NCBI GenBank assembly: GCA_905221615.1
Contig: CAJNDT010004502.1
Coordinates: 277,001-341,000 of the forward strand
DNA: 64,000 nt
Direction of reading: 5' to 3'
DNA from: Symbiodinium sp. CCMP2592
Taxonomy: Eukaryota; Sar; Dinophyceae; Suessiales; Symbiodiniaceae
Below are positions 2,876 through 57,711 of the stretch, piece by piece (the first letter of the stretch is position 1; each line of letters opens with the position of its first letter). Under the pieces are notes generated by a model that saw only the letters and a list, made by a program, of their open reading frames with translations, was not told the origin of the DNA and did no database searches. The position numbers and the translations under genes are program-made.

Positions 2876-4450
2876 CCCTAAGCCCCGATCCCGTTAAGGG
2901 CCCTCTTTAGGAGCCCTATAGCTACTTAGTCACATGATCCGTTAAGTCAGACCCCTACCGTAGGCTAAGGCTTCGACGGTCTTCCGAGCTGCCTTCGAAG
3001 CCCAAAGGGCGGAGGAAGAGAGGGATTTAGGGCTCCAAGTTTCCAGAGTTTGGGGTTCAGGCTTTGGGTTCAGGATCTGGGGTGTGGGGTGTAGGGTTTA
3101 GAGTTCGGGGTTTGGGGGTGGGGTCCTTCCGAGAGGATTCTTGCAACGGCGTTTTGGGAAGGTGCTTGTCACTTCTTAAAGCAGGTTTTCAACAGGTGCT
3201 GTACGCCTATGTTACTAAAAACGTATTGACAGTGCATATAGGGAGCTATAGCGCAGTTCTTGTACTATTAACGGGCTTCATTTGCCTTCATAGAAGCGTT
3301 AAAGGAGTGTTGCATGGTGTTGGTACCAGGGGGAGGAGAAAGTCGAGTGGCTTCTATAAAAAATGCATTCTGGGTTGCTCCCACTTGAGTCCTTTGGCAT
3401 CTCAGACAGCTTCTTTGAGTCCCCAATCCTACGTAAAGGAACACATGATCTTCCAAGTCATGTCTAGATCCTCAACCCCTTTCGCCCGACCCTTTGGGCA
3501 ACATCAAGACTCTTCGATGTTGCCACCAGTGTAAAGCGGCGACAACGCCGAGGCAGATCGAGCTTCGGACTCTGCCAAGCCAGGTGATTCAATGTACAGT
3601 CGAGCTCGGAGCCTCTCCGTAGCATCTTGTGTCGGGTTTAGGCAGATAGAAGTTTAGGGTTAAAGGGTTTGGGGATGTAGGGTTTAGCGCTGCGGCCTTC
3701 AGTAAAGCTGTTTGTGCACAAGATGCTGGCAACATCTGGCAAGCGTTTGATGATTTGATGTACAGAGTGTCGAGTTCATTTGCCAAGTGCCGGCAGTCCA
3801 TGTAGCACTGTCTCTGTACACGGCTTTGAGACTCCCAGGTGTATGAACTCATATGCGAGCTAAACCCAAGAAGACGCCATAAATGCAGTACTAAAATTTT
3901 AGGACTAGGCCGCTTAGCGAGTCCGCAACCTTGCAGCCCAAGCACCCGCAAAGCCCAAGAGAGCTTTATCCCTGAATCTCAAATCGCAAAGCCGTGCAAG
4001 TAAGACTCCCAACCCTAAACCCTATAAACCCTCCAGTAGCCAAAACCGAGAAACCCCTCGCTGGACCATTCATAGTATTTGGAGGATCCCGGGACTTGGT
4101 AAGCAAGGTTAGAAGTACCTTAACTGTGGTTATGAGTTGCTTAATTTTTAACTTTACTCTGGGCATCAAAACAGCCCAAAAGCCTTGTATAGTATGGTCT
4201 TTGGGCCCAAAAGCCTTAAAACATGAGTCCGTAGATCCCTTGGTCTAGTTACTACGTCCCAGGATCCTTTAAGCAATGAAGGCCCCTGAGTAATATGCCC
4301 ATCTCTCAGGGATCCTAATGTTGGAGCCTGTGCTCAGGGGTCGAGAGTACTCTTGCCCCTAGAATGCCCAATGCTACCCTAAACTCCAACGCTCTCAGCC
4401 CCAAGCTCAAAACCCTACTATAAGGGTTCCTTTACAGGGCCCTACAAGGG

Positions 4451-4556
4451 TTGGGAGTTTCCACAAATTAGGGGTACATTATTTGGGGGTCCTTATAATT
4501 AGGATCCCACTACTTAGGGTACTATATAAGGGTCCACTATGTTCAGAAACTCCCAA
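4451..4556. mobile_element. Foldback element, TTGGGAGTTTCC family
   Basis: TTGGGAGTTTCCACAAATTAG pairs with GTTCAGAAACTCCCAA. The core has TTGGGGGTCCTTATAATTAGG and TACTTAGGGTACTATATAAG. Related copies are at 47485-47578 (truncated) and 62213-62323. Confidence 0.7.
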
Positions 4557-4641
4557 AGTCTTCCCTCATCCCATATTTAGGGTGTCGGGTGTCGGAGAGC
4601 AGCCCCTATACCTCTGAACCCCGAAACCCTAAACCCTAAAC

Positions 4642-4927
4642 GGTACCTTCCGGTGGTGTGGGAGACCACGGGGCACCCAAGGGTGACCTCGCCGATAATT
4701 CCCCCGGTGCACGACCGGTAAGGTGGGGGTTACCCACCGCCATGGCAAGGGGTTTGGCTAGCCCCAGTCAAGCGTGCGATAGGGACCTGGCGCAGGTAAA
4801 CCGGGGCTGGTGGGAGGGGTGGGCCCACTGACGACGACGCGACTTTGGTGGATAGACGCGACATGATGAAACGACCTGTGAGGCACGTGGCCCGAACCTT
4901 ACAGTATAAGCGCCACTTTCATGAAAC
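4642..4927 (+). promoter_or_regulatory. Structured viral 5' leader with upstream AUGs
   Basis: The leader is rich in short hairpins, for example GGTGGG/CCCACC at 4722-4738 and GTGG/CCAC near 4654-4671. It contains upstream ATGs at 4742 (a 30-codon frame ending before ORF1), 4863/4866 (88 codons, overlapping the ORF1 start to 5126) and 4921 (about 51 codons). Simple 5'-end scanning would meet all of these before ORF1 at 4928, so leaky scanning, an internal ribosome entry site or leader replacement by trans-splicing are all possible. That is inference; no known IRES class is recognised. Confidence 0.5.
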
Positions 4928-7900
4928 ATGTCCACAAATTCATCATCGGGACGTGTACCAGCCCAAAGCAGAGGAAGTTCCGAGCATCCTTCTGCGGGCA
5001 CACATGCAGCTTCAAGGAACAGCTTTTCATACCGGGATGCGCAATTACTGGCGCGTGCACAGCGCGATGCCCGTGACCTGGAGCGAGCTGGGGCAATGCC
5101 TCGAGCTGCTGATCCAGTGTCACTGAATGCGGGCTTTGCACTGGCGGTTGAGATCCTTTCGGGGTCCTCGGCCAACACGTTAGCCGACCGGTATATTGCA
5201 GCTGTTTCCCTGGGGTTGGGGAGGAGGCAATGGGAAAGTGAAACCGGGGCGTTGGACGATGCGTTGCGCGAGCGGGCTCAATCTAGCTCAGACGCGCAAT
5301 TGCACTCCGCCCTAGACGTGGAACCTACCAGAACCTCCCGACCATCCACGGGGGCGAGGCGGGCAGCTCGGAAACGGATAGCTGCTAAGTTCAGCGGCCC
5401 TCCCGATTCGTGGGAGGATAGGGCTGAGAGACCTTCGCGCCGGGAACGCGCGCGGCTGCGGGCCAGCGCTACCGGTGGGTCTCCTCGGCCCGTGGCTCCG
5501 GGTGGAACACCTGCTACCTCTTCACGGCAAAGTGTCGTGGAAGGGGGACCCAGAGTGCATCCTGAGCCAGAGGCTGGAGAACGGGTGGTCACGCCTCCGG
5601 GCAGACCAAGGAGGGTTTGGTGCAGCCCTGGGGGCGTCGTGAATGCTTCTCAGGTGTCTGCGCTGGATCAAGCGGCGGGGGCGAGTGAGACACAGGGCAG
5701 CGGGTTCCTCGGGACTACGCCTAGTGACGCACGCTTTACTGCCGCTCAGGGAACGCCTGGCCGGTTGGGAATCCAGGAGTTTGTTGCACCAGGGGCTGTT
5801 GGCCCTTGCAACACTGGATCTGGCCAGGAGAGAGCGGACCCCAAGGAGAGAGAGCATCGGCGGAGGAGAGAAAGGAGAGCGCGAGGACGTGAGCGGCGGA
5901 GAGAGCTGAGAGGGTTGGAGGTGGCGAGCACGGAGGAGAGATCAAGTGGTGAAGAAAGGCGAGTGAGCCCGGGTGGTGACGAGGCTGAAAACGCTCAAGC
6001 GGCTCGGTTGAGCGCGTTGGAGGAGCAAAACCAAAGGCTGGAAGCGCAGATGGGCCGGCTCATGAGCTTGATGGAAGAGGTCGTGCAAGGGCAAGCCGGT
6101 CTAGGAGAGCGTGATAGGGAGGCTGGAGAGCACGCAGAGGCCGCAGGAGAGATTGCAGCTGCAGGAGGCGACAGCGAGGTGAGTGCCGCAGAAGAGCCAG
6201 ACAGTGAGAGCGAGGAGGAGAGTCCAGACTCATCCTTGTGGGCGTGCGCCTCCATCATGATGGCAGATGTTCCCCGAATGAGCTCAGGGGCTTTTGACCG
6301 GGCATGCAGGTTGTGTCGGTCTTTGTTAGCACGAGAAGGGCTGGAGGTGAGCGACTTGGAGGAGATAGTCGCGCACTTGGGGACAGACGCCTTCGTGGGA
6401 GCTGTGCGTCGATCGGATGAATTGACGCTGCTGGCCGCAAGAGTTGGGCCAGTGAGCGAAAGCTTGCGTGAGAGGTTGGCAGGGGGAGAACGCCGAGTGC
6501 GGACCGAGAGGCCACCGCGGCGTCCGAGGAGCAATGGGCCTCTGAGCCCTCCGAGCATGGGCGCCGTGGCAGAGGAGCTCAGCGGCTTGCACGATGCGAC
6601 GGAAAGGCTGTTGGAGGCGGCAGGGGCCCGAGATGGGGAGCTGATCGCCAGGATCCAGTCAGTGTTAGCCGGCGCAGAGGTGGGACAGCCGGTGTGGGTG
6701 CCCTCGGGGCCCAACGTGGAGCGCTTGGAGCAGGCAGGCCAGCTGTATCGCACCGCAGATGGATTCGGTTTCGTGCGCTGGGCGGGGCCTGAGCCAGAAA
6801 GAGTGGTGCCGGAGGGTCGATACTACTCCCCAGATTTAGCTGGGTCCCGCGTGCAAGACGCGTTCGTTGCACCGCATTGGGAGAGGGCTGTGGAAATTCA
6901 CTTGCGCCGCCACAAATTGGTGGCGTTTGGGTGGACTTGGAATGGGGCCCTGGCAGCATTGGTGAGCGAGGTTGGCCCAAGACCGCTCTCAATTCGGGAC
7001 CAGGCGGTGCAAGGTGACATGAGGTGCCGGTTGCGAGCCCAATGTGCGTGTGGCCAAAGCAAGGGGCGCGTGTTGGTCCAACACAAACCACGGCTTGGCC
7101 TGAACTGCGGGTGGTTCGCCTTGGCGTATCATCTTGGAGGCCAAGAGGCCATCAAGGATGGGCACGTCCGGCTAGCAGCAGAGGGGGCTGATAGGGTGAC
7201 TCAGGCTGCTGATAGAATCAAGGATCTTCATGCAGCCGCAACATATGCAGCAGTGGCCTTGTCAGAGGTGCCCATCTACGAGGGGCCAGAAGAGTGGTCT
7301 GAGGATTATGTGACCTTGCCAAGGTACCTGGCGATGGTGGCTAGGCGGTTGGCGGAAGGCGAGGTGTTTGAAGATGACACCGCCATGTCATCAGATGCTT
7401 TGGTGGTGGCCTCCTGGTTGGCCAACCAAGGCACGGTGAGCATACCCGATCTGGAGGGAGAAGCAACCGGGCCATTTGAGGTGGAACGTTTGGTGACCGC
7501 CAGGCGGATGGAACGGGTTCGCGAAAGTGTCCGACGACTCTGGGCTCTGAAGGGGGCCTACCCGGTCGACGTGGGCGTCATTTGTGACGTGGCGACTGAC
7601 CATGGCTTGGAGCTCCGGGTACACAGCACTGAGCAGTGCATGGGGCCTGAGAACACTAACGCCCATGTGTTTGTGAGCCCGAGCCAAGCGGTGGGTCACA
7701 TTGTAGCCTTGGAGAGTGAGCTAGACGGGGTTGGAGCCAGCGAGTACGACGAGGGAAAGCAAAGGTTGTACACGTACATGGCGGGGCGGGCAGTTCATCT
7801 GACTGATCCGTTTGATTCCACCCCTTTGGTAGCAGCTGGGGCGCATTTTTGCCATGCTCAGGGCATGCCAACCTCTTTGCAAAGCGACTACTCTGGACCG

Positions 7901-7975
7901 GCGCCAGGGCGATGTTGGGGTCACTGCGTGCCCAACACTCAGAGAGCTGGTTCGCAATGGCCAGGGAGTTCATAG
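4928..7975 (+). CDS. Viral ORF1 polyprotein with possible cysteine protease
   Basis: A 1015-codon frame begins at the ATG closest to the end of the leader. Residues 1-290 are Ser/Arg/Ala-rich. About 300-360 is an Arg/Glu low-complexity tract. About 357-392 (ALEEQNQRLEAQMGRLMSLM) is a strong coiled-coil candidate, followed by an acidic Ser/Glu stretch to about 435. Further on, NCGWFALAYHL around Cys727 resembles a papain-like nucleophile motif. GHIVALE around His924 could be the paired histidine, although the spacing (~197 residues) is long. The last ~40 codons look off-frame, and the protein-like reading continues in another frame from about 7850. ORF1 therefore probably extended to 8349 originally, or is reached there by frameshifting. 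No jelly-roll capsid motif is recognised. The protease call is tentative; that this is viral coding sequence is firm because of the polymerase downstream. Confidence 0.8.
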   Translation: MSTNSSSGRVPAQSRGSSEHPSAGTHAASRNSFSYRDAQLLARAQRDARDLERAGAMPRAADPVSLNAGFALAVEILSGSSANTLADRYIAAVSLGLGRRQWESETGALDDALRERAQSSSDAQLHSALDVEPTRTSRPSTGARRAARKRIAAKFSGPPDSWEDRAERPSRRERARLRASATGGSPRPVAPGGTPATSSRQSVVEGGPRVHPEPEAGERVVTPPGRPRRVWCSPGGVVNASQVSALDQAAGASETQGSGFLGTTPSDARFTAAQGTPGRLGIQEFVAPGAVGPCNTGSGQERADPKEREHRRRRERRARGRERRRELRGLEVASTEERSSGEERRVSPGGDEAENAQAARLSALEEQNQRLEAQMGRLMSLMEEVVQGQAGLGERDREAGEHAEAAGEIAAAGGDSEVSAAEEPDSESEEESPDSSLWACASIMMADVPRMSSGAFDRACRLCRSLLAREGLEVSDLEEIVAHLGTDAFVGAVRRSDELTLLAARVGPVSESLRERLAGGERRVRTERPPRRPRSNGPLSPPSMGAVAEELSGLHDATERLLEAAGARDGELIARIQSVLAGAEVGQPVWVPSGPNVERLEQAGQLYRTADGFGFVRWAGPEPERVVPEGRYYSPDLAGSRVQDAFVAPHWERAVEIHLRRHKLVAFGWTWNGALAALVSEVGPRPLSIRDQAVQGDMRCRLRAQCACGQSKGRVLVQHKPRLGLNCGWFALAYHLGGQEAIKDGHVRLAAEGADRVTQAADRIKDLHAAATYAAVALSEVPIYEGPEEWSEDYVTLPRYLAMVARRLAEGEVFEDDTAMSSDALVVASWLANQGTVSIPDLEGEATGPFEVERLVTARRMERVRESVRRLWALKGAYPVDVGVICDVATDHGLELRVHSTEQCMGPENTNAHVFVSPSQAVGHIVALESELDGVGASEYDEGKQRLYTYMAGRAVHLTDPFDSTPLVAAGAHFCHAQGMPTSLQSDYSGPAPGRCWGHCVPNTQRAGSQWPGSS

Positions 7976-8349
7976 AGGCGCGGGCTGGGTACGCCGAGTT
8001 CGCGGCCGTTGTGCCCAAAAACTGGCGCTTGTGCGCAGTGCTCACACAGGGGCGCACGGCAGTGGAAGCGGTGGAGGCTCTGATGAAGGACGAGCGGCTT
8101 CTCGGGGAAGTGGCTCTCATCTTGCCTGGTGGAGCAGCATTGACGAGCGCTGGAATAGCGTTGGGAGGCACCGCCGGGCCGTTTGCCGCGAGTGCCGTGG
8201 GTGGTGCATTGGCCCTGGGAACGATAGTGGCAGCAGTGGCAAGAAGCAGGACGTTCCTCCGGTTGTCAAGCAATGCTTGCTGCAGTGCAGCGTTGCTTCG
8301 TCTCGTGCGCTCAGCGCGCCGGGGCAACAAGCGCCAGATACGCGTATGA
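7816..8349 (+). CDS. Hydrophobic ORF1 continuation in the -1 frame
   Basis: This frame is open from 7816 after a TGA at 7813, but its reading looks genuine only from about 7850. It is rich in Ala, Glu and Leu, with a long hydrophobic Gly/Ala stretch (nt 8110-8241, containing GGAALTSAGIALGGTAG) that could form two membrane helices. This suits the membrane anchor often found between protease and polymerase in positive-strand viruses. No good ATG opens it at the 5' end. It is most simply the C-terminal part of ORF1, separated either by a one-base loss at the five-T run at 7846-7850 or by programmed -1 slippage; a canonical slippery heptamer is not evident. Its TGA (8347-8349) overlaps the ATG of the polymerase frame. 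Confidence 0.6.
   Translation, partial: FHPFGSSWGAFLPCSGHANLFAKRLLWTGARAMLGSLRAQHSESWFAMAREFIEARAGYAEFAAVVPKNWRLCAVLTQGRTAVEAVEALMKDERLLGEVALILPGGAALTSAGIALGGTAGPFAASAVGGALALGTIVAAVARSRTFLRLSSNACCSAALLRLVRSARRGNKRQIRV
8346..8349 (+). promoter_or_regulatory. ATGA stop/start overlap before the polymerase
   Basis: The TGA ending the hydrophobic frame (8347-8349) overlaps the ATG (8346-8348) of the polymerase frame. Overlapping AUGA is a known site of coupled termination-reinitiation in some RNA viruses, for example victoriviruses. Here it would express the polymerase at low level after ORF1. Function is inferred; the overlap itself is directly visible. Confidence 0.6.
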
Positions 8350-10637
8350 AGGGTCCTTGGATCCATGTGTCGCCTTCCCACTCGTATCAAGAGGGGGAAC
8401 CCACGAGCTGGGCCTCACCACTGGAGCCACAAGAGTGGTGGGGGGCGCCACTGGACAGGGCCTATTTGGTGCGCTTGAACGCGCACAGCGAACGTGTTGA
8501 GGCGAGCGTGAAGGCAGCGTGCTTTCGGGCACCCTGGCTTGGCCCAGGGTTGCCACCCAAGCTGCTGAAACGCTTGTCGTCTGGAGGGCGGAAATACCAG
8601 AAAGTTTATGGTGACAGGCCTCAGGTCTGGAGCGGCCATGCAGATTCGCCGGAAGAAGCAAAGGGTGTGAAACCAGCGCTGCAACAACTGAGAGTCGCCG
8701 CAGCGGCTCAAGCCGAGAGGGTGGGGCTACATGATCCAACCGTACACCCATCTCCAGAAGCTCCACGACTCGTGGAGTGGTGGAGGCGAGGACCGCCATC
8801 ACGCAGGGAGGAATTTTTCTCTGAACCTAGGTGCCATGTTCCAGTTGGCGGGGCTCTTGATCTGGTTAACGGCACTATACACAGGTTGGGGAGGATGCAT
8901 CCTCCTTGTTTGGGCGCTCCGCCAGGTTGGAAACCAGGTCATTCAACTGGGGGATTTGGGGGTCCACTGGGGGCGCTGCGTGGGGTGTTGAAACGACTGG
9001 TGCCAGTGTTCCTGACGCCAGGCTGGGTCCAAGGAAATCCGTTGCCGTTGGCGCCGGAAAGGTTGGCTCCTGCTTCGGTAGAGGAAACACTGCACCACGC
9101 ACCTCCGCGTAGCAGGAAACGCCTCCTAGAAGCGCTGCAAATGAAGTGCATGGGGCTGGCAAGCACGAGAAAGCGCCTCAGCCTCAAGCTCACGGTGAAA
9201 CGTGAGCTCATGCATCTCAGCGGCAAGGCGCCGAGGATTTATGCAGCTCCCATGCCGCAGCGAACGCTCGACATGGCTCCATTTTACTTGGCGTGGTCCC
9301 GACAAGCCGTGGGCATGTTCTGGTCGGACAAGGGCATGACCCCTGCTGAAAGGGCCAGGCACATTGGCGCACATGCACAGGCCCACGATCTCGAGTGGGC
9401 AGTGCATAGTGATGTTTCGGCTTGGGATGCCTCTTTCGCTCCCGAGATCAATGCGTTGATCATGGAGTTCGAGGCTGCGATTTTCACCCAGCCGTACTCG
9501 GAGACCACTGCCAAGGACCATGCCGTCAGGAGTGCCAAATCTCGTTTTGTAAAGACCCTCCTGCTCGGACTACACCACTCGGGTGAGGGTGGAAACACCG
9601 CCCAGAATTGTGAGCTCCATGTGGGCATTCGCATTCTCATCTTGGAAGTGGTGTACGATCTGCGGCCTTTGAACGATCCAGCCATCCTCATCATGGTATC
9701 CGGAGATGATGGCATCGACGTGCACAAGAAGGCCTATGATGTTGAGCTGGCTGAGCGTGCCACCAATTTGATGGCTGCCTTGGGCTTCCGAGGGGAGCAG
9801 ATGGTGGCGAAACTCAATGCGGTGGAGTCTGAGCCGGGGGAGTCGCTGTACGAGCAAGAGGAGGATGCATACTACCAAGGCGTGGAAAAGGCGGTCGAGG
9901 AACACATGAGGGTTGAGGAAAGCCGCAACTACCAGGCATGGGAGGACTGGGCAATCTTCGACGAGATGCATGGGCCCCGAGCTCGTCAGAAACGGCGCAG
10001 AACTATGCTGGAAGTGACTGTGGGGCCGCAAGCGGGGCAGCCGGGTTCCTCGCAGTCTGTCCGGGTGCCGTGGCCTGGCACGGGATCGCGAATGGTGGTC
10101 ACGTTGCAGACTACGACGGAGTCGGATGATGATGCCACTACGGTCAAGGCGTCGCCTGGGAAACCGGAGGAAGTGGAGATCCCTCTGGAGTTCGGTGAGT
10201 ACATGGACCTATTCACGCAGTGGTCGCAGGGGGTGGTCAGCAGTGCTGAGGTGAAAACTCGCTTTGGGGAGGCGACCTTGGACATGCTGGAGACGCAGAT
10301 GGTGGTGAAAGCAGGAGCCTTGGATGAGGGCGAGGAAGGCTACAACGACGGGTTTGACCGGGAATCGCCGGGACCTGGAGGAGTTGGGCCCATTGTCGAT
10401 GACCGGGGTGTTGCAGAGTCTCCGGTTCCTCCAGCGATGGCGAGTGCGATGAGTGAGGCGTCCCAGAGAGCAGAGACACTATTGGATGCAGTGCTTTCCA
10501 ACACCCAGGTGGAGGCTGAGGAGACGATGGTGCTTCAGGGTGCAGGGCAGGGACATGCTCTAGGTGATGATGGAGAGCTTGCTGGACAGTGTGAAGGTAC
10601 CGGGTTTGACGGATGTGCCGAGAAGGATGAGAAGTGA
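8346..10637 (+). CDS. Viral RNA-dependent RNA polymerase (EVE)
   Basis: This ORF copies viral RNA. I choose the ATG at 8346 (763 codons) because it overlaps the stop of the preceding frame as ATGA; the frame is also open up to an ATG at 7854 (927 codons). Numbered from 8346, the motifs in order are: motif F-like basic region, K285-R-E to K-A-P-R297-I; motif A, D356-V-S-A-W-D361; motif B, S412-G-E-G-G-N-T-A-Q-N; motif C, S-G453-D-D-G. All catalytic aspartates are present. After about residue 500 comes a long extension with a basic patch (RARQKRRR) and then an acidic Glu/Asp/Gly-rich tail of unknown role. There is no premature stop, so decay is slight. The motif order identifies a positive-strand RNA virus polymerase. 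The family cannot be fixed by eye; candidates are the noda/tombus/sobemo-like groups and dinoflagellate RNA viruses. Confidence 0.88.
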   Translation: MKGPWIHVSPSHSYQEGEPTSWASPLEPQEWWGAPLDRAYLVRLNAHSERVEASVKAACFRAPWLGPGLPPKLLKRLSSGGRKYQKVYGDRPQVWSGHADSPEEAKGVKPALQQLRVAAAAQAERVGLHDPTVHPSPEAPRLVEWWRRGPPSRREEFFSEPRCHVPVGGALDLVNGTIHRLGRMHPPCLGAPPGWKPGHSTGGFGGPLGALRGVLKRLVPVFLTPGWVQGNPLPLAPERLAPASVEETLHHAPPRSRKRLLEALQMKCMGLASTRKRLSLKLTVKRELMHLSGKAPRIYAAPMPQRTLDMAPFYLAWSRQAVGMFWSDKGMTPAERARHIGAHAQAHDLEWAVHSDVSAWDASFAPEINALIMEFEAAIFTQPYSETTAKDHAVRSAKSRFVKTLLLGLHHSGEGGNTAQNCELHVGIRILILEVVYDLRPLNDPAILIMVSGDDGIDVHKKAYDVELAERATNLMAALGFRGEQMVAKLNAVESEPGESLYEQEEDAYYQGVEKAVEEHMRVEESRNYQAWEDWAIFDEMHGPRARQKRRRTMLEVTVGPQAGQPGSSQSVRVPWPGTGSRMVVTLQTTTESDDDATTVKASPGKPEEVEIPLEFGEYMDLFTQWSQGVVSSAEVKTRFGEATLDMLETQMVVKAGALDEGEEGYNDGFDRESPGPGGVGPIVDDRGVAESPVPPAMASAMSEASQRAETLLDAVLSNTQVEAEETMVLQGAGQGHALGDDGELAGQCEGTGFDGCAEKDEK

Positions 10638-10769
10638 GATGGTCGGTCGCACAGTGGAGTCATGATGGTCGGGCAGTGATGGGAACTGAAGGTAGAGGGA
10701 CTGGCCTGCCCAAATGGGCTCTCTATGCTGTACTGCAGTATGGAAAAAGGTGTTCAAAAAAAAAAAAAA
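10638..10769 (+). other. Viral 3' untranslated region and poly(A) run
   Basis: About 118 nt follow the polymerase stop, then 14 consecutive A residues (10756-10769). No AATAAA signal was seen, which suits a genome-encoded or cytoplasmic tail better than a host-cleaved mRNA. The run passes directly into CCCTCAAACCCTAAAG. Confidence 0.75.
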
Positions 10770-10870
10770 CCCTCAAACCCTAAAGCCCTAAACCGCCCTA
10801 AACCGCCGACGTGCAAAGACTAAGCTTTGGTCTGCTCGCAAAAACCCTTCCAGCCTGCACAGGAAAAGGA

Positions 10871-57554: not shown

Positions 57555-57711
57555 GTTCGCTTATTCTTCCTTTGTAGTAGCATTGCACTCCGCACCCCTA
57601 GGAGGCGATTGCGAATCATGTAGTATAGGGGAACCCTAAACCCTAAACCCTCACCGGTTCGAGCGGACGGAAAAAGGCGTTAAACAAAATAAAACCTCAA
57701 CCGGTTTAGGG

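Follow-up and report, generated by a model that had tools for sequence, protein, structure and literature searches.

How a long piece of RNA virus sequence could have become part of the nuclear DNA of a dinoflagellate is the question raised by a block at positions 4642-10769 of a 64,000-nucleotide (nt) stretch of Symbiodinium sp. CCMP2592, referred to here as the window (C4501:277001-341000; the contig has 625,000 bases and the assembly 1.098 Gb in 5383 contigs). The original prediction described the block as a nearly full-length viral genome, with an apparent leader, complete coding region and poly(A) tail, copied from polyadenylated genomic RNA by reverse transcription, as retroelement enzymes are known to do, and inserted at a telomere-like site. 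The leader and the retroelement insertion at a telomere-like site are retained in our analysis. The complete coding region and the viral tail are not, as the RNA-dependent RNA polymerase (RdRp) is cut a little way past its motif C and the tail is assigned to a long interspersed nuclear element (LINE). We consider it likely, with a probability of about 0.77, that the block is one insertion, comprising the 5′ part of a virus and the 3′ end of a LINE, made through a template switch by a LINE that prefers telomere repeats; priming would thus have occurred on the LINE tail and not on a poly(A) of the virus.

Viral sequence in the block

Beyond 5 kb, the G+C content of the block, taken kb by kb, is ∼0.56-0.63, compared with ∼0.44-0.52 across most other parts of the window. 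As predicted, two long open reading frames (ORFs) occupy its + strand, ORF1 (1015 aa) and ORF2 (7854-10637, 927 aa). They include 1016 and 934 consecutive codons without a stop, far beyond chance expectation: when the block was simulated 500 times with a first-order Markov model, the longest open run had 541 codons. The predicted RNA polymerase motifs are also present in ORF2, where SDVSAWD, SGEGGNTAQN and SGDDG follow one another in the order and with the spacing of RdRp motifs A, B and C; a motif F-like sequence precedes them. A profile built from an alignment of four RdRp pieces from the genome (A3) gave 12 matches in PDB at E≤10, spanning motif F to D with a best E of 2.1e-4. Every one of the 12 is a viral RNA polymerase; one entry bears the name of NS5B from classical swine fever virus, and the others are pestiviral too. 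A wider profile (A1) gave weak matches (best E 0.041), 11/11 of them RdRps, while a control profile of the LINE tail (A5) matched a single entry, a ferritin (E 0.27). Pestivirus-type polymerases are thus the first matches of the RdRp profile, a distant similarity that does not place the virus in Flaviviridae.

Searches with single sequences were less informative. Single RdRp pieces matched no RdRp family in Pfam at E≤10, the motif F region giving DUF5553 at E 0.0096 and 15.8 bits, below the cut-off of 25, and single-protein searches of Pfam, PHROGs, PDB, a protein database (E≤10) and viral contigs returned nothing convincing. A search of a database of 5.8 billion proteins found one 125-aa protein, 63% identical across half of the query (E 1.6e-35). 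An AlphaFold model made without an alignment had a mean predicted local distance difference test score (pLDDT) of 39.1. Within the host genome, the RdRp piece has 10 matches including the window, the other nine being 29-46% identical. A query giving 20 matches was discarded, as it contained the LINE tail. Remnants of ORF1 relatives were found on C2113 (57% over 61 aa) and C2112 (33%) and nowhere else besides ORF1 itself, and the viral pieces had no match at E≤1e-3 in the LINE loci L029-L031, L036, L040, L045 and L048.

Combined, the motifs and profile matches identify the RdRp as the polymerase of an RNA virus. It lies in assembled host DNA with host repeats on both sides (C4501), in the manner of a non-retroviral endogenous viral element (EVE). 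The viral part covers ∼5.2 kb (4642 to ∼9835) and breaks off within the RdRp, not far past motif C. The sequence of the virus 3′ of this cut, namely motif E, the thumb and the 3′ end, is missing from the insert, and a capsid gene, if any, would belong to this missing portion or to another place.

Assignment of the 3′ end to a LINE

The last ∼0.93 kb of the block (∼9843-10769), comprising part of ORF2, the 3′ untranslated region (3′UTR) and the predicted terminal A14, is assigned by similarity to the 3′ end of a host non-long terminal repeat (non-LTR) retrotransposon, a LINE. In blastn alignments it is 75.7% identical to L029 (9848-10768) and 72.5% to L030 (9848-10769), and a query of 9840-10640 had three other genome matches, of 75, 73 and 68%, all beginning at 9848. 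The tail corresponds to the C-terminal part of the third ORF of this LINE (ORFc), with protein identities to L029, L030 and L031 of 66.8 (over 286 columns), 64.3 and 53.2%, respectively, and DUF6822 matches weakly both the tail region of ORF2 and the same region of the LINE ORFc. Among short LINE copies, the nearest are L035 (98.8% over 85 nt) and L034 (96.4% over 110 nt), a closeness that fits a young LINE subfamily. The reading of A14 as a viral poly(A), and with it the nearly full-length genome, was therefore rejected, since the last 125 nt have 34 genome matches, one of them the window itself, and the tail matched the LINE ORFc. A profile match to the enzyme of a host element, the outcome that by the original prediction's own terms would have refuted it, was not obtained for the polymerase, where the A3 matches are viral, but a host element does account for the tail.

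At the junction, the RdRp and LINE frames continue as one ORF, with neither telomere-like sequence nor a duplication between them. The predicted CCCTAAA-type repeats abut both sides of the block, the left flank CCCTAAACCCTAAAC stopping at 4641 and the right flank CCCTCAAACCCTAAAGCCCTAAA beginning at 10770. 3′ of A14 there are repeats only and no viral sequence. Besides A14, the whole window has a single further A/T run of ≥12.

The long copies of the LINE (L029-L031) have three ORFs, of ∼310-380 aa, ∼1017 aa with a reverse transcriptase (RT), and ∼1140-1200 aa (ORFc). The RT domain RVT_1 was detected with Pfam in the ORF upstream of ORFc (L029, 2.9e-16; L036, 1.4e-18), and the LINE RT protein P0002 has 8 PDB matches at E≤0.01, to structures of R2 and LINE-1. 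L036 is a fourth, more distant element with an identical ORF order. The third ORF, 3′ of the RT ORF, measures 1111-1178 aa (L029:411-3944, L036:4798-8130), and its DUF6822-like region scores 7e-08 in L036, above the cut-off, and 6.1e-04 in L029, below it.

Target preference of the LINE family

The sequence following the A-tail was examined at 33 of the 34 LINE 3′ ends (all except C86). A match of ≥9/14 to (CCCTAAA)n was found at 23/33, compared with 9.7% of 20,000 random host positions; 10/33 fell below this threshold, and the best score in the TTTAGGG direction was 7/14. Insertions of this family therefore lie by telomere-like repeats in a fixed orientation, as expected of an element that targets telomere repeats. 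LINE copies are 5′-truncated at many points, and many run straight into the repeats. Exact flanking duplications lying no more than 8 nt from the 5′ edge reached ≥9 nt in 10/33 copies and ≥5 nt in 15/33; single cases are weak because two AAACCC-type sites drawn at random share a 10-mer within 35 nt in ∼7% of pairs. The A-tail, the 5′ truncation and the duplications seen across copies are the features of a non-LTR retrotransposon, the class to which the tail belongs. Elsewhere in the window, a very short LINE-like 3′ end at 57650-57700 (+), with GGAAAAAGGCGTT followed by an A-rich stretch and flanked by CCTCACCGGTT and CCTCAACCGGTT, resembles a minimal 5′-truncated insertion.

A second putative virus-LINE insert

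A locus on another contig, L044 (C5090:41000-50900), has a similar composition. Its G+C-rich stretch begins in the 3201-3400 bin and fades by 5601-5800, and an ORF at 3341-5086 contains motifs F, A and B; GDD and the sequence after it lie in a different frame. 3′ of the RdRp is a piece of LINE ORFc (34% over 47 aa, E 1.8e-5), in a frame different from that of the RdRp, followed by a GGAAAAAGGTG core, an A-rich end and telomere-like CCCC-repeats. The 10-nt sequence CCCCAACCCC is present as an exact copy at each edge, with no further copy in the 5.6 kb upstream; it lies within 35 nt of 288/20,000 random AAACCC-type sites (1.4%). L044 is thus read as a second insert of virus plus LINE tail, in which the virus, the LINE (a distant relative) and the junction are all unlike those of the window. 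RdRp remnants of related viruses are also present at L037, L038, L039, L019, L023, L025, C1569 and C2879.

Origin of the insert

These observations are consistent with the following series of events. The LINE enzyme would open a TTTAGGG/CCCTAAA repeat, and the 3′ end of the TTTAGGG strand would prime reverse transcription at the A-tail of the LINE's own RNA. After copying ∼0.93 kb the enzyme would leave the LINE template, switch to a viral RNA at a point within the RdRp gene and copy ∼5.2 kb of it, up to where the leader ends, the product then being joined to the upstream repeat. An insert made in this way would have been defective from the outset, without motif E, thumb or viral 3′ end, and its frame would have changed twice since. 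The composition of the product, the target preference and the recurrence of such products are shown by the sequences of the assembled loci.

Several points weigh against this reading. The jump and the enzyme that made it are inferred, template switching not having been observed. No exact target-site duplication flanks the window insert, whose edges show only an imperfect pairing of CCCTAAAC and CCCTCAAAC, and no full-length close donor of the tail was found in the assembly (best 75%). An AP-endonuclease, which a LINE of this type should have, was not detected by Pfam or PDB matches in the N-terminal 340 aa of the RT ORF, its motifs being seen by eye only. The ORFc match in L044 is short and, taken alone, weak. 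Most RdRp remnants show no LINE tail, which was found at 2/8 of the loci checked (window, L044, L037, L038, L039, L019, L023 and L025; these are 8 of the 10 RdRp loci, all except C1569 and C2879). Finally, a profile with a misaligned row, L044:5001-5483 (A2), lost the RdRp matches; its single PDB match was a ribosomal protein (E 0.67), and it was replaced by A3.

The same product could arise if a chimeric RNA had formed before reverse transcription, by viral-polymerase recombination or by splicing, and had then been copied whole by the LINE machinery. Sequence lacking the exact viral and LINE parents cannot separate a jump at the DNA level from one at the RNA level, dinoflagellate mRNAs are trans-spliced (PMC6050394), and the viral and LINE frames run through the junction as one ORF. 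However, this agreement of frames has a one-in-three chance of arising at random, the two frames differ in L044, and no dinoflagellate spliced leader (DinoSL) is present within 3 mismatches anywhere in the window. Template jumping by a LINE is moreover the simpler known route, and joining at the RNA level is considered unlikely. It is very unlikely that two events were involved, an older viral insert having been struck later by an ordinary 5′-truncated LINE copy. Although such truncated copies are common in the family, the sequence 3′ of A14 consists of repeats and the boundary between RdRp and LINE tail shows neither telomere-like sequence nor a duplication; at L044, the 10-mers enclose virus and tail as a single unit.

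A LINE lineage carrying the RdRp gene as cargo would explain why RdRp and tail share one ORF, and the LINE enzyme would recognise the tail of such a composite element. Against this, the leader matches itself alone in the genome, the two matches to the ORF1 piece besides itself are short and diverged, the RdRp matches are remnants of low identity, and no virus-LINE junction was seen repeated; we regard a composite element as highly improbable. An assembly chimera is barely credible, as the window contains no N, the flanking repeats are of the same kind as at other LINE sites, and L044 provides a second, different chimera with a flanking duplication. Insertion of a virus-LINE product through a template switch by the LINE enzyme thus remains our preferred explanation of the block.

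Layout, reading frames and decay

The features of the block are listed in Table 1. CCCTAAA-type repeats are found window-wide, with 248 matches to the 14-mer (≤1 mismatch) where 0.14 are expected, and interstitial CCCTAAA/TTTAGGG arrays are dense on both strands of the whole window. A location at a chromosome end was rejected, the repeats being interstitial and dense throughout.

Table 1. Features of the insert and its flanks (window positions).
Feature	Position	Strand	Comment
Host telomere-like repeats CCCGAAACCCTAAACCCTAAAC	4620-4641	+	Abut insert on left
Viral 5′ leader, 286 nt	4642-4927	+	Single match in the 1.1-Gb genome, itself
ORF1, N-terminal part of viral polyprotein	4928-7975	+	Coding signal in ORF1 frame to ∼7880
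Third-frame open segment, 177 aa	7816-8349	+	Coding signal ∼7900-8300; two hydrophobic stretches
Viral RdRp segment, ORF2 frame	8349-9835	+	End approximate, 9810-9843
Motif F-like KRELMHLSGKAPRIYAAP	9198-9251	+	Alignment with L038, L039, L044
Motif A, SDVSAWD	9408-9428	+	ORF2 residue 519
Motif B, SGEGGNTAQN	9579-9608	+	ORF2 residue 576 (SGEGGNT)
Motif C, SGDDG	9699-9713	+	ORF2 residue 616
Virus-LINE junction zone	9810-9848	+	LINE protein similarity clear from 9843; three DNA alignments begin at 9848
LINE ORFc, C-terminal part	9843-10637	+	In frame with RdRp; ends at ORF2 stop
LINE 3′UTR with GGAAAAAGGTGTTC core	10638-10755	+	34 genome matches to 10645-10769 including itself
LINE A-tail, A14	10756-10769	+	
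Host telomere-like repeats CCCTCAAACCCTAAAGCCCTAAACCG...	10770-10807	+	Abut A-tail

Judged by codon usage, viral coding keeps to a first frame until ∼7880, is in a second at ∼7900-8300 and in a third from ∼8300, a pattern unchanged when the codon usage was trained on ORF1 alone. The hydrophobic stretches of the viral segment at 7900-8299 are possibly membrane-spanning. Programmed frameshifting was rejected as a general explanation, a heptamer at 7822 being in phase for the first change while none exists in 7990-8349 for the second. A programmed shift is thus possible for the first change only, and two indels, resulting from decay or assembly error, are preferred. The three viral segments contain no stop in 1608 codons, which would bound divergence near 1.7%, assuming equal, unselected substitution. 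The insert is therefore read as decayed, though probably young.

Host features

The repeat unit and a spliced leader both mark the host as a dinoflagellate. Published accounts give the dinoflagellate telomere repeat as TTTAGGG (PMC11453091) and the DinoSL sequence, together with trans-splicing of dinoflagellate mRNAs (PMC6050394). L030 (C1035, oriented 1758) carries the exact 21-mer DinoSL at its 5′ end, followed by GGCTCAAG relicts, placing the leader on a retroposed transcript. This 5′ end looks as if LINE RNA had been trans-spliced and recycled. GGCTCAAG is in tandem in L029 and L036 and single in L031. Relicts lacking the full leader are suggestive only, because the 8-mer GGCTCAAG alone occurs 8 times in the 64-kb window. 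L036 (C1236:937000-946900) contains two LINEs head to tail, with a degenerate DinoSL at 8269 preceding the second.

Discussion

Both halves of the proposed mechanism have counterparts among known elements. The non-LTR elements SART1/TRAS and Zepp have insertions that occupy telomeric repeats, and the LINE described here is likened to them by target alone; it differs in that the repeats are CCCTAAA-type and interstitial and in the third ORF, ∼1100-1200 aa in length, that follows the RT ORF in its long copies. LINEs also form template-switch chimeras with cellular RNAs, e.g. U6-L1, in which foreign RNA is 5′ and the LINE end 3′. In the window, by contrast, the foreign part is a 5-kb piece of viral RNA.

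Viral inserts made by LINEs, and the nearness of LINEs to inserts of dinoRNAVs, are already known (PMC3205384; PMC10235124). The dinoRNAV EVEs of Symbiodiniaceae, for which LINEs were proposed as the agent, resemble the window insert in being non-retroviral RdRps in dinoflagellate nuclear DNA; for those EVEs, the link to LINEs consists of relict spliced leaders and of nearness, for instance a LINE lying 95 bp downstream in one case, or non-LTR-like ORFs in the vicinity (PMC10235124). In the window, in contrast, the LINE 3′ end is fused gaplessly to the virus, and the viral profile finds pestivirus-type polymerases first. The LINE-1-mediated bornavirus elements (EBLN) similarly have a poly(A), target-site duplications and a non-LTR maker, but they are described as copies of viral mRNA with the mRNA's own A-tail (PMC3205384), whereas the window insert has the LINE's tail. 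Recombinants of lymphocytic choriomeningitis virus and intracisternal A particles (LCMV-IAP; Geuking 2009, as summarised in PMC3205384) likewise show recombination between an RNA virus and a retroelement yielding integrated viral cDNA; that system is experimental and somatic and involves an LTR element, whereas here a LINE is involved and two inserts are inherited and present in a reference assembly. A literature search, with subscription papers mostly outside its scope, found no published virus-LINE-tail chimera in a dinoflagellate.

What is new, therefore, is a gapless virus-LINE-tail fusion defined at the base level and found twice. Its occurrence with different viruses and different junctions gives pointers to the enzyme involved, to the site of priming and to the sequence of steps, and the LINE 3′ end can be used as bait to find further viral captures. 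In addition, the insert supplies a long stretch of sequence from a virus lineage of which the searches otherwise found one short relative only. It is conceivable, if rather doubtful, that the enzyme of this LINE family, starting on the LINE 3′ end, keeps jumping onto abundant viral RNA and so regularly stores pieces of the dinoflagellate's RNA viruses in interstitial telomere repeats, as an archive and perhaps later as an antiviral memory. If this were true, such repeats would preserve a record of viruses not known from elsewhere, in this case of a lineage whose polymerase is pestivirus-like. The block itself suggests how viral RNA was copied into the DNA of this dinoflagellate.

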